NCBI GenBank assembly: GCA_024742875.1 | Contig: JANSXP010000033.1 | Location: 1-64,000 of the forward strand | Reading direction: 5' to 3' | DNA from: Planctomycetaceae bacterium | GTDB taxonomy: Bacteria > Planctomycetota > Planctomycetia > Planctomycetales > Planctomycetaceae | DNA: 64,000 bases | Part shown: piece after piece, positions 1,751 to 7,180 of the stretch | Layout of the letters: the number at the start of each line of letters is the position of its first letter | Numbering within the stretch: position 1 is the stretch's first letter | Translations under genes and position numbers: made by a program | Notes under the pieces: model-generated | Seen by the model: the letters and a program-made list of their open reading frames with translations, nothing else | What the model was told of the DNA's origin: nothing | Databases searched by the model: none

Positions 1751-2089
1751 GTAATCACTTTCCAACGGATGTGGACCCAATGGCGGAGAATGGTAGGGCC
1801 AAACCGCAGCAAGTGCAGTTTCATGAATACAGCAGCATCGAAACTTAACCCACTCTTCATAAAAGGGTGGGTTTGGCCAGCTGATGAACAGATCGGACCA
1901 TGTCGCCGGGAATACCTCGCTGTGGAGCGGGCGAGAGTCGTGTTTTCCACGTCCCGTTCGGGGAAAATTCACAATATTGACGGGGAACGACAGCCTGCAG
2001 TGGGGCCGTTGTACGGGATGGAGGCATACCTGCACTCAGTGTGGGACGCTGGCGGGAATTCCAGGCAAGTTCACGGAAACCCGCACGAT

Positions 2090-3586
2090 ATGCCCGGCAT
2101 GCCTCAGAGCCTCGCCCAAATTGTGAAATCCGACCGTCTGCCGTCGCTGCCGTCCATCGCTCTGCGAGTGATCGAACTGGCTCGCGAGCCAGAACCCGAT
2201 TTTCGTGAAGTGGCGGACGTGATTCGCACCGATCCCGCATTGTCAGGCCGGCTGCTGCGGACCGCCAACTCCGCGCTGTTTGGGCTGGGTAAACCGGTGA
2301 CCTCTGTGGAATCCGCGATTCCGCTGCTGGGACTGACGCTGGTGCGCACCATGGTCCTCGGCTTTGCACTGGCCGATCAATCCGGCCGCAGTCCAAAGCG
2401 GTCCCGAGCGCTGGAAAATCTGTGGCGCAGTTCGCTGACACAGGCCGTGTTTGCTGAACAACTGGCCTCGGAAATTCACGACGCCGATCCGGCCACCTAC
2501 TTTCTCGCTGCTTTGCTGCAGGACGTTGGCATTCTCAGTTTTCTGCATGTGGACCCCGAAAATTACCTTGAGCAGATCTGGCAGCGGAGCGAGTTTCCCG
2601 ATGTGGTGACCCGCGAACGCGACCACTATGGCTTCTCCCATGTGGAACTGGCCATGGAACTGCTGGACAACTGGGGGCTGCCGGTCGACATCCAGCACGC
2701 CATCGGAACGCACCATCAAAAGATGGCCGTGACCTCGGTGGACGAACTTTCGCCACTGGCCAGGACGCTGCAGGCAGCCGCACTGTGTGGCCACTACGTG
2801 GTCAATCATCGCCGCACGGGGCAGTCGCTGACGGAACTGGTGGTCTTTCTGGAGAATCACTTTGGCTGGTCGGGCGAAAAGGTCGAGACCGCGCTGTGCG
2901 AAACCATGATGCGAGTGGTCGAAACCGCGTCCATCTTTCAGTTTGATGTGGGTGAGGATTATTCTCACGAACGCATCCTTCGCGACGCCAAAGACCTGCT
3001 CGAGCAGATCGCACTGTCACAGCATGCCGCCGAGACGCGCGCACAGGCACTCGGACAGCAGATCATGAAAGATCCGTTGACGGGAGCTTATAACCGGATG
3101 TTCATGGACCGCGGGCTGAACGACCGCCTGGCGACCGCCATTCGCCGTCGCTGGCCGATCGGCTTGATGTTTGTGGACATCGATCGCTTCAAGCAGATTA
3201 ATGATCAGTTTGGGCATCGGGCGGGAGACGAAGCCATCGTGCAGGTGGCGTCCACGCTGCAAAAATGCGTGCGACGCAACGATGCTGTGGTCCGTTACGG
3301 GGGCGACGAGTTTCTCGTGGCAATGCCCAAAATTCGGGCGAGTGAATTTGAGAATATCTGCGTGCAGGTGCAGACACGGATTCGAGAGCAGTCGTATGCC
3401 GAGAACGGTTTTTCCCTGACGATCAGTCTGGGGGCCGTGCTCTATCAGCCGGAGAAAGGCGACGTGCAGGATGCCAACTGGCTGATCGATCGCGCTGATC
3501 GGGCGATGTACGAAGCCAAACGTGCGGGGGGCGACCAGGTCTCTCTGGAGCGGCTCGACGCGTGTCGCGAGTGCCCGGTAGCCTGA
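2090..3586 (+). CDS. HDOD domain diguanylate cyclase (HDOD-GGDEF)
   Basis: About 498 residues from ATG 2090 (MPGMPQSLAQIV); ATG 2018 or 2099 are alternatives, and none has a strong ribosome binding site. Residues ~8-210 form an HDOD domain (LPSLPSIALRVIELA, then a helical bundle with LAALLQDVGIL and AIGTHHQK), a family that usually acts as a signalling scaffold rather than a phosphohydrolase. Residues ~325-490 are a GGDEF domain: DPLTGAYNR opens it, the active site reads RYGGDEF (intact), and RRND five residues before it is a canonical inhibitory I-site for c-di-GMP feedback. It is therefore probably an active, product-inhibited diguanylate cyclase making c-di-GMP from two GTP. There is no transmembrane helix, so it is probably cytosolic. 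The input signal is unknown. Confidence 0.9.
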   Translation: MPGMPQSLAQIVKSDRLPSLPSIALRVIELAREPEPDFREVADVIRTDPALSGRLLRTANSALFGLGKPVTSVESAIPLLGLTLVRTMVLGFALADQSGRSPKRSRALENLWRSSLTQAVFAEQLASEIHDADPATYFLAALLQDVGILSFLHVDPENYLEQIWQRSEFPDVVTRERDHYGFSHVELAMELLDNWGLPVDIQHAIGTHHQKMAVTSVDELSPLARTLQAAALCGHYVVNHRRTGQSLTELVVFLENHFGWSGEKVETALCETMMRVVETASIFQFDVGEDYSHERILRDAKDLLEQIALSQHAAETRAQALGQQIMKDPLTGAYNRMFMDRGLNDRLATAIRRRWPIGLMFVDIDRFKQINDQFGHRAGDEAIVQVASTLQKCVRRNDAVVRYGGDEFLVAMPKIRASEFENICVQVQTRIREQSYAENGFSLTISLGAVLYQPEKGDVQDANWLIDRADRAMYEAKRAGGDQVSLERLDACRECPVA

Positions 3587-4179: not shown

Positions 4180-4207
4180 TTGACCCGTCTGAACGTTGTG
4201 CTAACAT
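4180..4207 (+). promoter_or_regulatory. Candidate sigma-70-type promoter of the cobalamin riboswitch transcript
   Basis: TTGACC (4180-4185), a 16-base spacer, then TAACAT (4202-4207). The predicted transcription start near 4213-4216 falls just before the first conserved part of the riboswitch, which is where a leader promoter should be. Assigned by eye from sequence only. Confidence 0.5.
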
Positions 4208-4214
4208 CCGCCCA

Positions 4215-4465
4215 CGCTCAAAGTGTCGAGGGCTGCCGATGCAGACTTCGTGAACAGGGAACTCCGGTGCAATTCCGGGACGGTCCGGCCGCTGTGAGCT
4301 ATCTGCAGCCGTTGCCACGATGTGCCTGGCACAACAACGCGACGGTCGTACCCAGTCATCCTCGCACTGCCATTGTCGCCGCGTGCCACTCACAACCGGA
4401 GTGGGCAGGCCGACGAGAAGGTTTGGAAGTCTGGTGATAGCGAGTCAGAAGACCTACTTGGGGCG
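4215..4465 (+). promoter_or_regulatory. Cobalamin (B12) riboswitch
   Basis: The element follows the cobalamin aptamer (RF00174-type) order. A small P2-like hairpin CTGC-CGAT-GCAG lies at 4233-4244. The core runs from GGGAA (4257-4261) through CCGGTGCAATTCCGG to GGTCCGGCCGCTGTGAGC (ending 4299), matching the consensus GGGAA..CGGUG.AA.UCCGG..CGGUCCCGCCACUGU. A peripheral GCCACT (4385-4390) and GAAGG/GGAAG segment follows, and then the B12 box AGTCAGAAGACCTACTT (4443-4459), close to AGCCAGGAGACCUGCC. No intrinsic terminator with a T-run was found after it, so control may be translational or Rho-linked. It lies on the same strand as, and about 230 bases before, a DUF1559 pseudopilin and PEP-CTERM gene pair; no standard cobalamin transport or synthesis gene is nearby. 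Confidence 0.92.
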
Positions 4466-4488
4466 AGACGGTTTGTTGTCCTCCAGGA

Positions 4489-4608
4489 TTGGGACAGTCG
4501 TTGCAGGTGTTGTTGGTCGCGTTCTGCTGCTTTGCCGCTTTGGTTTGGTCAGTGTGTGATCACCGCATCTGGGTTGCTCAAAAAAGTACGCCCCTATTCT
4601 CTGGCTGA
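4489..4608 (+). CDS. Possible 39-residue hydrophobic peptide downstream of the B12 riboswitch
   Basis: A TTG-initiated frame begins 30 bases after the B12 box and encodes a peptide starting MGQSLQVLLVAFCCFAALVW: one clear transmembrane-like stretch of about 17 residues, followed by a short polar tail with CDHRIW. CCAGGA overlaps the start position, too close for a normal ribosome binding site; internal TTG or GTG starts are possible. It sits where a small riboswitch-controlled membrane component could be, and would explain the long gap before the next gene. It may equally be chance. Confidence 0.25.
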   Translation: MGQSLQVLLVAFCCFAALVWSVCDHRIWVAQKSTPLFSG

Positions 4609-4696
4609 ACGTGCGCGCTGAGTGCGGAATGCGGTCGCCCAATGACGGCCACTGTGCGCCATCGCGGATGTCTTCACAGAGCAGAACGGTTCCCTG

Positions 4697-5557
4697 ATGC
4701 GCAGCAAATTGCGTGGCTTTACGCTTATCGAGTTGCTGGTGGTGATTGCCATTATCGCCATATTGATTGCCCTGCTGCTGCCCGCCGTTCAGCAGGCTCG
4801 CGAGGCGGCACGCAGAATGTCGTGCCTGAACAATCTGCGGCAGATTTCCCTGGCGCTGCACAACTACGAAAGTCAGCATCGGTGTTTTCCGATTGGCTGT
4901 CTGGAATGCGTGCCGCCTTCGTTTCCACCTCCGCCCACTTTTCGGGCGCGGCAGCTGGCGTGGAGCATCTACATTCTGCCGCAAATCGAGCAGAAGAATG
5001 TCTATGACCTGTTTGACTTCAACGAGTCATTCCGTTCGCTGGACAACTACGTGCCGGCGGGAACGGTGATCTCCACTTACCTGTGCCCCAGTGCGTTTCA
5101 GGGGGAACGCCCCGGATCCACCAGCGGGGATGTCAACGGCAACGGGGTCGTGGATCCGGGCGATGGACTGGCGTGGACCGACTACGGCGGCCTGTTTGGC
5201 TCGTCTCACAATACGCCCACCATTTTGCCCGAGCACGAAGGCATGCTGCTTTACGACCGCATTACCCGGGTGCGTGACGTAACAGACGGTCTGTCCAACA
5301 CGCTGATCGTCGGTGAGTGCACGGGCCGTGGGCACTCTCTGCAGTCGCACTGGGCCAACGGTCAGAACCTGTTTGATCAGCGGTTTGACAACCCGATCAA
5401 CACGACACGCAACAACGAGTTATTCAGCGACCACACCGGTGGCTGCAACGTGGCTTTCAGTGACGGCCATGCTCGCTTCCTGAGCGAAACAATGGATCAG
5501 GACATTCTGAACGGATTGATGACACGCGCCGGCGGTGAAGTGCTGGGCGAATTTTAA
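4697..5557 (+). CDS. DUF1559 domain pseudopilin-like protein
   Basis: 286 residues. The N-terminus [16 protein letters not shown] is a type IV pilin/pseudopilin prepilin peptidase site (cleavage after G before FTLIE), followed by the hydrophobic helix and [17 protein letters not shown], the signature of the planctomycete DUF1559 family. The body has the usual HNYES...PSAF...DYGG pattern, an internal [12 protein letters not shown] loop like a dockerin calcium site, and the C-terminal [10 protein letters not shown] that ends DUF1559 proteins. DUF1559 proteins are numerous in planctomycetes and believed to be exported surface or envelope proteins; function is unproven. It lies about 230 bases after the cobalamin riboswitch and 42 bases before the PEP-CTERM gene, so co-expression under B12 control is likely. 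Confidence 0.9.
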
Positions 5558-5599
5558 AAAGGCGATTGCCGGCCGAGAGCCGGTTGGAAAAGGTATGTG

Positions 5600-6304
5600 A
5601 TGAAATACGGGCCAGTTTTCTGTGTGCTGCTGCTGATGCCGTGTGCGTCAGCCGGTGTGATGGATTTTGATGACCTTGTGATCTGGGCTGGCAGTGGCAG
5701 CAACGAAGCCGCGCTGGTGGTGGACTGGCGGGACAGCCGTCCGTCTCTGGCCTGGGGCTTCCGCTGGGATGGCGCGGCCACCGGCGAAGATATGATGCGC
5801 GCCATCGTCGCTGAGGATGAGGACTTCTACGCGTCCATCAACGATCGATCTATATTCGGAAACTTCGTCAGTGGGCTGGGCTACGATCGTGACGGAGATG
5901 GCTTTTCCGTCACGTCGGGAGTTGCGTTCGATGCGGACGGACTTTTTGTGGGCGATACGCCTATAGACGGTATCGCTGACGATGCCGACGATTCCTATGG
6001 AGAGAGTTCACCATCAAACTTTGGGTTTTGGGAATACTTCGTTTCGGTAGACAATCCATTTGACGGCGGGTCGTGGAACTCGTCATCCGTAGGCTTTAGT
6101 GTCCGTATGCTGAGTGACGGCGACTGGGACGCGTGGGTCTATCCGGGATTCATTGGAAACGATCCCCCTCCGGCTCCGCTGGCCGCAGGGGCCACACCTG
6201 TTCCCGAGCCGTCGACATGGGCCGCCTTTGCACTTTTGACAACCGGTTATGTCATACGCCGGACGCGTCAGCGACGGCGTAAGTCGTCAGACGCAGCCGC
6301 GTGA
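5600..6304 (+). CDS. PEP-CTERM surface protein, possibly B12-regulated
   Basis: 234 residues from ATG 5600, 6 bases after GGAAAAGG; a GTG one codon earlier is possible. A signal peptide (MKYGPVFCVLLLMPCASA) precedes a ~180-residue extracytoplasmic domain with AALVVDW, LAWGFRWDG, TGEDMMRAI and, near its end, SDGDWDAWVY. The C-terminus PVPEPSTWAAFALLTTGYVI plus an RRTRQRRRK tail is a PEP-CTERM sorting signal, recognised by an exosortase that is not in this window. Downstream of the DUF1559 gene and the B12 riboswitch, it may be a cell-surface protein made when cobalamin is scarce, for instance to bind corrinoids. That role is inference from context. A short AGCTGC-TGTG-GCAGCT hairpin (6309-6324) separates it from the convergent methyltransferase gene. 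Confidence 0.85.
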   Translation: MKYGPVFCVLLLMPCASAGVMDFDDLVIWAGSGSNEAALVVDWRDSRPSLAWGFRWDGAATGEDMMRAIVAEDEDFYASINDRSIFGNFVSGLGYDRDGDGFSVTSGVAFDADGLFVGDTPIDGIADDADDSYGESSPSNFGFWEYFVSVDNPFDGGSWNSSSVGFSVRMLSDGDWDAWVYPGFIGNDPPPAPLAAGATPVPEPSTWAAFALLTTGYVIRRTRQRRRKSSDAAA

Positions 6305-6322: not shown

Positions 6323-7003
6323 CTAAACCAGTCTTCCGGCGATCGTCCAGTGGCGATCGCTGGTGGCCTGGACCCATTGTCGAGGAAAGCCGGCTGCGGT
6401 CAGCAGGTCGCCCACTTCTTCGACCGTGAGTGCCGCGTGCAGCGATTCACGGAACATCTGCTGCTGGTGGTCGTTCTCGTCACCCGCGTAGGTGGCCACG
6501 ATGTGCTCGACCTGTTCGCTGGATTCCGGTCGCATCAGATCGCGGACAAACAGGACGCCGTCCGGCGTGATGATACGGCGCATTTCCACAAACACATCGG
6601 CCGGCTGTGGAATGTGGTGTACGATGCTGTTCGACATAACGACCGCACAGGACGCGTCGGCCACTGGCAGTTTCTTGGCATCGCAGAAGACGGGCAGGAT
6701 GGTTTTTTCCAGCGGTGTGTCGCAGATGTGTTTGCGGGCCAGTCGCAGCATTTCCTGTGACAGGTCGCAGGCCAGCACGGAAGAAAAGCGGTCGCTGGTC
6801 CGCATCAGCTGGATGGGGATCAGGGCGGTTCCCGTGCCCATGTCGAGTGCACGGCTGGCTGTGGTCGGCAGTCCGCTGGCGGCGACAAAATCCAGCAATT
6901 CACCCACAAACAGCGCGTTGACAGCGGAGTGATCCATGCTGTCGTAGTCTACCGCTTCTTCCACCGTGTCCATGACTTCCGGTTCGAGTGTTCTGGGCAG
7001 CAT
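6323..7003 (-). CDS. Class I SAM-dependent methyltransferase
   Basis: 226 residues from ATG 7003 (MLPRTLEPEVMDT), with GGAGA 6 bases upstream; the frame extends upstream without a better site. Motif I is LDMGTGTALIPIQL, with the acidic residue of motif II in LACDLSQEML and VMSNSIVHHI as motif IV. This is the Methyltransf_11/25 fold of small-molecule or ubiquinone-type methyltransferases. The N-terminal MDTVEEAVDYDSMDHSAVN resembles planctomycete and cyanobacterial stand-alone methyltransferases of unknown substrate. Convergent with the PEP-CTERM gene, with only about 18 bases between stops. Substrate not predictable. Confidence 0.85.
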   Translation of the reverse strand: MLPRTLEPEVMDTVEEAVDYDSMDHSAVNALFVGELLDFVAASGLPTTASRALDMGTGTALIPIQLMRTSDRFSSVLACDLSQEMLRLARKHICDTPLEKTILPVFCDAKKLPVADASCAVVMSNSIVHHIPQPADVFVEMRRIITPDGVLFVRDLMRPESSEQVEHIVATYAGDENDHQQQMFRESLHAALTVEEVGDLLTAAGFPRQWVQATSDRHWTIAGRLV

Positions 7004-7180
7004 GCAGTTCTCCACTGGCTCTGTTGGGCGAATGACGGGGCTCGCGTTGTACAGCGCCGCGTGCCGACGTTCTACCGGCAGGCGGCCGGGCACCCGTTTT
7101 TTGCCGGCTCACTGGCTACCGCCAGTCGCGGGAAGTGTTTATGGTGCTCTGACTGTTTTCACCATTCGGGCGAGTGCACT

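Follow-up and report, generated by a model that had tools for sequence, protein, structure and literature searches.

A cobalamin riboswitch upstream of a DUF1559 pseudopilin and a PEP-CTERM surface protein in a planctomycete: a candidate module for corrinoid capture at the cell surface

The riboswitch and the two-gene unit

We analyzed a 64,000-nucleotide stretch of a Planctomycetaceae bacterium ("the window"; positions 1 to 64,000 of contig JANSXP010000033.1, assembly GCA_024742875.1), in which a cobalamin riboswitch precedes genes for a DUF1559 prepilin (pseudopilin) and for a PEP-CTERM surface protein with an unnamed domain (Table 1). Riboswitch and domain recur across three phyla beside B12-uptake proteins, and the two-gene unit is probably a B12-repressed module that catches corrinoids at the cell surface.

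A sequence-only reading of this DNA had proposed the riboswitch, and a covariance model search bore it out: the aptamer is full length (model positions 1 to 189), scores above gathering and is the sole Rfam match at gathering thresholds within the window. No second RF00174 was found among the 150 of 620 first-look candidates that were scored in the genome (8,183,757 bases in 168 contigs, 98.1% complete). The spacing proposed for the gene pair, about 230 bases past the riboswitch, is also as described, the first ATG lying 222 nucleotides (nt) downstream of the aptamer and the gap between the pseudopilin stop and the PEP-CTERM gene being 39 nt. The promoter-like −35/−10 pair of the same reading did not stand out from shuffled sequence.

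The pseudopilin has every hallmark of DUF1559, namely, an N-methylation motif (PF07963, 33.5 bits versus a cut-off of 21.2), PF07596 (E 1.2e-54) and H-X9-DG (TIGR04294, 32.3 bits versus a cut-off of 19). The second protein ends in a PEP motif, a hydrophobic stretch and a basic end; this tail scores 21.6 bits with TIGR02595 (cut-off, 16) and 17.5 bits with Pfam PF07589, under the cut-off of 20.7 for that model. The next gene (6323-7093, a methyltransferase) is on the opposite strand, and the unit therefore consists of two genes. The genome also encodes a B12-dependent methionine synthase (PF02965, E 2.8e-104). Upstream of the riboswitch, positions 1769-3586 encode an HDOD-GGDEF protein.

Table 1. 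Features of the riboswitch-controlled unit, in window coordinates
Feature	Position	Strand	Basis
Sigma-70-like promoter match, TTGACC-16-TAACAT	4180..4207	+	1 found versus 1.0 expected in shuffles
Cobalamin riboswitch aptamer, RF00174	4204..4475	+	Covariance model 55.9 bits, gathering score 31.5, E 3.5e-11
Leader, aptamer to first gene	4476..4696	+	No terminator-like site detected
DUF1559 prepilin (pseudopilin), 286 aa	4697..5557	+	PF07596, PF07963, TIGR04294
GCxxC motif of pseudopilin, residues 67-71	4895..4909	+	5/5 domain-paired pseudopilins of the window's type
PEP-CTERM surface protein, 235 aa	5597..6304	+	Start GTG 5597 or ATG 5600
Unnamed riboswitch-associated domain, proposed corrinoid binding	5657..6175	+	Family alignment A6, genomic context, fold of relative L003
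PEP-CTERM sorting signal (PEPST, hydrophobic stretch, basic end)	6197..6268	+	TIGR02595 residues 202-224; PF07589 residues 201-222

Recurrence of the domain behind cobalamin riboswitches

The unnamed domain comprises about 175 residues. None of seven aligned members matches a Pfam family at E up to 5, NCBIfam detects the PEP-CTERM tail of the window protein and nothing over the domain, PDB sequence searches with the domain returned no relative (best E 0.1 and 0.77, both unrelated), and PF14717 (DUF4465/BtuJ) matches neither the protein nor its domain. It is a candidate new B12-binding domain family outside all Pfam models.

With the window protein or its profile as the query, an initial search gave matches at five genome-contig loci, one of them in the tail only, and related genomes gave matches in 8 of 98, three in the C-terminal part only. 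At phylum level, 13 of 392 genomes of Planctomycetota matched at E ≤ 1e-5; matches were also obtained in 32 of 387 genomes of Verrucomicrobiota (the phylum of a Puniceicoccaceae match) and 8 of 395 of Bacteroidota (the phylum of a Flavobacterium match). The counts below refer to 49 loci, 17 planctomycetal, 24 verrucomicrobial and 8 bacteroidotal; L and G numbers are our handles for loci and genomes. Kept outside them were the weakest 8 of the 32 verrucomicrobial genomes (E 2e-11 and weaker), two partial extra matches in G730, and the matches confined to the C terminus (L005, L012-L014, L016-L018 and that of G451, whose riboswitch is on another contig).

A cobalamin-class riboswitch lies upstream of the domain gene, on the same strand, at 41 of the 49 loci and in all three phyla. 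It is present at 15 of 17 loci in Planctomycetota, the exceptions being L003, on a contig that starts immediately upstream of the pseudopilin gene, and L046, in a genome (G276) where no riboswitch was found anywhere. The verrucomicrobial figure is 20 of 24 (18 RF00174, one RF01689 and one RF01482; exceptions L225, L234, L237 [contig edge] and L238), and the bacteroidotal figure is 6 of 8 (none detected at L211, which lies at a contig edge, or at L214, where the fetched region omits the upstream part). Since genomes carry none to three cobalamin-class riboswitches (19 genomes counted) and the search for loci used the protein, chance association is excluded. Recurrence beside homologues, on which the sequence-only reading had made its proposal depend, is therefore observed.

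Neighbors and fusion partners of the domain

In Verrucomicrobiota, 12 of 24 loci have the domain and a BtuH-like domain within a single open frame, and in Planctomycetota BtuH-like genes follow the domain gene at L019, L039, L044, L045, L047 and L048. At seven of the eight bacteroidotal loci, the domain is fused to DUF5074. The order at L004, L208, L210, L212 and L213 is riboswitch, BtuB-like TonB receptor, DUF5074/BtuG-like gene, BtuH-like gene and domain-DUF5074 fusion; L214 has the same order but with domain and DUF5074 as separate genes, L209 consists of riboswitch, BtuH-like gene and fusion, and L211 is cut. The BtuH of L004 matches the solved BtuH2 (7biz, E 5.5e-45), the match of its TonB receptor to TIGR01779 (E 9e-22) falls far short of the cut-off of the model, and its fusion protein has a Por secretion tail (PF18962), another surface-sorting signal, at the C terminus. 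The genes downstream in G412 encode CobT and CobS (PF02277 and PF02654).

Equating the BtuH-like proteins with BtuH depends on a single profile-profile comparison, in which the planctomycete and verrucomicrobial proteins matched bacteroidotal BtuH over 70 columns (probability 90.6, E 1.3e-6); the score was 54.2, and 50 column shuffles reached at most 20.7. The planctomycete BtuH-like proteins have no match to BtuH2 in the PDB. Neither the BtuH-like profile (A4) nor the BtuH of L004 matched at the window locus, and a search of the genome, made without a positive control, found no BtuH-like match. At L020 (9660-10808, by Pfam) and L003 (2361-3443), the domain gene is followed by one for an NHL beta-propeller protein, which might be a BtuG-like partner.

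Predicted fold and possible link to B12 carriers

The domain of L003, a planctomycetal relative, gave a model of moderate quality (mean predicted local distance difference test [pLDDT] score, 67; predicted template modeling score, 0.68). When this model was compared with known structures, rows 1 to 14 were haptocorrin, intrinsic factor and transcobalamin, and the beta-domain fold of B12 carriers was counted as present on this basis. The window's domain may thus fold like the beta domain of these three carriers. The link is one of fold, because sequence profiles give it no support: homology to DUF4430 was not significant in comparisons of two alignments under several settings (probability 1.2 at best). 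DUF4430 (PF14478) was not found in the window's genome. Elsewhere (G144:C55 and G182:C1), tandem cobalamin riboswitches are followed on the same strand, after about 4 to 5 kilobases (kb), by DUF4430 genes.

Model and neighbors bear on a different ligand for the domain. It could bind a non-corrinoid, such as the surface of a B12-producing partner or a polysaccharide, and the protein would then be a B12-responsive adhesin, merely coregulated. PEP-CTERM proteins are often regarded as matrix or adhesion proteins, and what points to B12 is context and a moderate fold model. An adhesin is nevertheless unlikely in view of the fusions to BtuH-like domains and DUF5074, the position within BtuB-BtuG-BtuH operons and the likeness of the L003 model to B12-carrier beta domains. 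From genomic context and this model, we strongly infer a putative surface corrinoid binder.

Pseudopilins under B12 riboswitches

The pseudopilin is a regular follower of cobalamin riboswitches in the window's family. We sampled 20 riboswitch regions, 19 from 17 genomes of this family and one from G068; 21 genomes of the family have a riboswitch match and seven do not, and the sample leaves out the window's own genome, G014, G045 and G327, as well as families f97, f79, f17 and f5, whose riboswitches were listed. Pseudopilins of relatives were called by motif, with Pfam confirmation for the window, L001 and L073. A DUF1559-type prepilin motif occurs 114 to 385 nt past the aptamer in 17 of the 20 regions, and 16 of the 17 family genomes have a DUF1559 gene behind the riboswitch. 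The three exceptional regions are all from G199, two with DUF4465 PEP-CTERM genes and one with a gene that by eye is ribonucleotide-reductase-like. Across 40 other families of the phylum, represented by one region each (two with <500 nt), three regions have the motif, in two cases 2.1 to 2.4 kb away, and the arrangement is mainly a feature of the window's family.

Downstream of about 10 riboswitch-linked pseudopilins is a gene for a periplasmic binding protein, BtuF-like by eye. The one that was checked, at L074, belongs to PF01497; its naming as BtuF is weak, as NCBIfam models for F420-0, PGF-CTERM-anchored and heme binding proteins rank above BtuF, all far below cut-off. G010 has a set of the BluB-CobQ-CobA-CobT-CobS type by eye, in which a nitroreductase-family protein and CobQ were checked. 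Regions L074, L077, L079, L083, L085 and L086 also contain an ATP-pyrophosphatase-like gene and, in some of them, a small membrane protein before the BtuF-like gene (both by eye).

A tree of 53 pseudopilins comprised that of the window, four other domain-paired copies, 18 other riboswitch-linked copies and 30 of the 63 PF07596 matches of the window's genome. It was midpoint rooted, and all paralogues came from this one genome. The window's copy clusters with the other four domain-paired copies (99/98); these five then join that of G068 (99/96), on the side of the ordinary paralogues, and the other 17 riboswitch-linked copies form a separate group (100/100). Most simply, this topology suggests that DUF1559 genes gained B12 control at least twice. 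The GCxxC motif of the domain-paired type is absent from that stretch in all 30 own-genome paralogues, the 18 other riboswitch-linked copies and seven distant pseudopilins. A C-terminal tail, GF[LI]SxDNxLY, is common to many B12-linked pseudopilins; the window's own copy lacks it, and a looser form was found in none of the 30 paralogues and none of six copies of the window's type. The tail was recorded at L039, L044, L045, L047, L048, L215, L220-L222, L224, L225, L231, L234 and L236.

Dozens of DUF1559 genes per planctomycete could place one beside a riboswitch and a PEP-CTERM gene by accident, and the 63 PF07596 matches in the window's genome, some of them pieces of one gene, show how many there are. 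Such an accident is highly improbable, given the riboswitch at 41 of 49 domain loci, the clustering of the five paired pseudopilins apart from 30 paralogues and the short distance between aptamer and prepilin motif in 17 of 20 regions.

Pseudopilin versus TonB receptor

A pseudopilin in the same orientation is found near the domain gene at 31 of the 49 loci (14 planctomycetal and 17 verrucomicrobial, including L048 and L227 [cut by a contig end], both missed by the motif), and a TonB receptor is found at 9 (3 verrucomicrobial and 6 bacteroidotal). The two never occur together; neither occurs at 9 loci, at least 4 of which are cut by contig ends. Phylum explains this exclusion in part. Within the 24 loci of Verrucomicrobiota alone, 17 have a pseudopilin, 3 a receptor, none both and 4 neither, and the probability of no overlap by chance is about 0.02 (calculated by hand, ignoring kinship).

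Of 48 genomes whose pseudopilin is linked to a riboswitch or to the domain, 26 lack any match to the TonB plug, PF07715 (6 of 14 planctomycetal genomes with the domain, 12 of 17 riboswitch-DUF1559 genomes and 8 of 17 verrucomicrobial genomes). The plug-free genomes include the single-contig G014, G011, G025, G040, G047 and G008. All nine receptor-type genomes have plug matches, numbering from 3 to at least 60, and a single weak match was found in the window's genome (E 1.5e-4).

Because the 31 and 9 loci never overlap, and because plug-free genomes number 26 of 48 versus 0 of 9, we tentatively raise the possibility, in our view a doubtful one, that in Planctomycetota and many Verrucomicrobiota a B12-repressed pseudopilin replaces BtuB, surface transcobalamin-like and BtuH-like proteins catching the corrinoid and a pseudopilus delivering it through the outer layer of cells that have few TonB receptors or none. 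The exclusion is a correlation and does not itself demonstrate movement of B12 by the pseudopilin.

Proposed mechanism and alternatives

For the unit in the window, we propose the following. At low cobalamin, the riboswitch would permit expression of the two-gene message; with cobalamin bound, expression would fall, as predicted by analogy with riboswitches of this class. After export, the PEP-CTERM protein would stay in the envelope by virtue of its sorting signal, and corrinoids outside the cell would be bound by its core domain, as context and fold suggest. The pseudopilin would build or dock on a pseudopilus-like structure, holding the binder or helping to bring corrinoid into a cell nearly devoid of TonB-dependent receptors. 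This is the weakest step, and that the pseudopilin holds or delivers corrinoid, perhaps replacing BtuB, is only weakly inferred. The notion of a surface, B12-responsive pair for corrinoid capture, first put forward from the sequence, gains support from riboswitch recurrence at 41 of 49 loci, from BtuH-, BtuG- and BtuB-type fusions or neighbors and from the L003 model.

Several observations weigh against this interpretation. The stretch from the aptamer to the first start codon showed no terminator-like site, no expression platform was identified, and the RNA of 4430-4720 folds no better than shuffles (z 0.49). Eight of the 49 domain loci have no detected riboswitch, although four of these are truncated by the end of a contig or region. 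No match to the PEP-CTERM protein occurred in any of seven same-genus genomes, and one of them, G004, has the riboswitch and DUF1559 without it; the pair is therefore not universal. The structural argument draws on the model of relative L003, the AlphaFold2 model of the window's domain being unusable (pLDDT, 41.9), and Foldseek alone gave the L003 model no match below E 0.001 (best, 0.077). Comparison of the domain with DUF4430 by hhalign was not significant, column shuffles equaling the score in 16 of 100 cases locally and 46 of 100 globally. Lastly, some pseudopilin-type genomes have 5 to 13 PF07715 matches (G299, 13; G349, 8; G1045, 6), and their range overlaps that of receptor-type genomes.

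The pseudopilin step has a competitor, which we consider possible although we would not expect it to prevail: the pseudopilin may be a type II secretion-like aid to export or assembly of the PEP-CTERM protein without a role in moving B12, which would enter by an unrelated route. PEP-CTERM proteins need export and sorting, and a dedicated helper would lie near the domain gene, as the pseudopilin does at 31 of 49 loci. Against this, DUF1559 follows the riboswitch in 16 of 17 family genomes in which searches found no domain match and which thus have no such cargo; about 10 such regions have a BtuF-like gene or cob genes downstream (by eye, one checked as PF01497); and the verrucomicrobial TonB-receptor loci L230, L232 and L238 retain the surface domain, with no pseudopilin found.

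Significance and relation to known systems

A surface domain that recurs behind B12 riboswitches in three phyla points to little-known B12 capture at the cell surface. The results also yield a candidate B12-binding domain that may be related in fold to human B12 carriers, and they place some clades of the large, unexplained DUF1559 family in a physiological context. We know of no precedent for vitamin transport across the outer membrane by a pseudopilin, and replacement of BtuB, if true, would be a new way for a vitamin to cross that membrane. In literature that was short on subscription journals and preprints, we found neither a prior description of a riboswitch-pseudopilin-PEP-CTERM system nor a paper with planctomycete B12 uptake in its title.

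Like other planctomycete DUF1559 pseudopilins, the window's copy has PF07596, the N-methylation motif and H-X9-DG; it differs in its B12 riboswitch and in GCxxC, which its 30 sampled paralogues lack. Neither DUF4430 nor the carrier beta domain (transcobalamin, intrinsic factor and haptocorrin) shows significant sequence or profile similarity to the window's domain. Mammalian B12 carriers have a large N-terminal domain, which has no counterpart in the 235-residue protein.

The DUF4465 family is a further close comparison for the PEP-CTERM protein, although PF14717 does not match it. G068 and G199 carry DUF4465 proteins with PEP-CTERM tails behind cobalamin riboswitches (L090 in G068; L091 and L092 in G199, all PF14717). 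In G068, the DUF4465 gene is preceded by a DUF1559 gene and by a gene that looks BtuH-like by eye, and that of L092 lies upstream of a MetE-like gene (by eye). Mucisphaera calidilacus, the source of a tested member of the family, is presumably a planctomycete. Two papers (PMC12751083 and PMC13398666) describe DUF4465/BtuJ proteins (IPR027828) as exported B12 binders; many of these bear a lipoprotein signal or a C-terminal signal for extracellular targeting, a protein of M. calidilacus is among those tested, and the fold is given as an augmented beta-jellyroll. The terms PEP-CTERM and Planctomyc are absent from both texts. With exported B12 binders of this other family on record, the idea is less isolated than it looked.

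Riboswitch-controlled surface B12 binders in Bacteroides and B12 binding by DUF4465 proteins are already known (PMC12751083 and PMC13398666). In Bacteroides, the surface B12-binding lipoproteins BtuG, BtuH, BtuJ (DUF4465) and BtuK sit in riboswitch-controlled operons, binding having been demonstrated for BtuG, BtuH and BtuJ (PMC8941943 and PMC12751083). The window system resembles these in combining B12 riboswitch control with an exported, putative B12-binding protein, and its domain is found inside bacteroidotal Btu operons beside BtuB-, BtuG- and BtuH-like genes. The domain itself differs from the Btu lipoproteins in having no Pfam or PDB sequence match, and the window protein carries a PEP-CTERM signal in place of a lipoprotein signal. 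Finally, no TonB receptor was found at the window locus, where the gene beside that for the surface protein encodes a pseudopilin.

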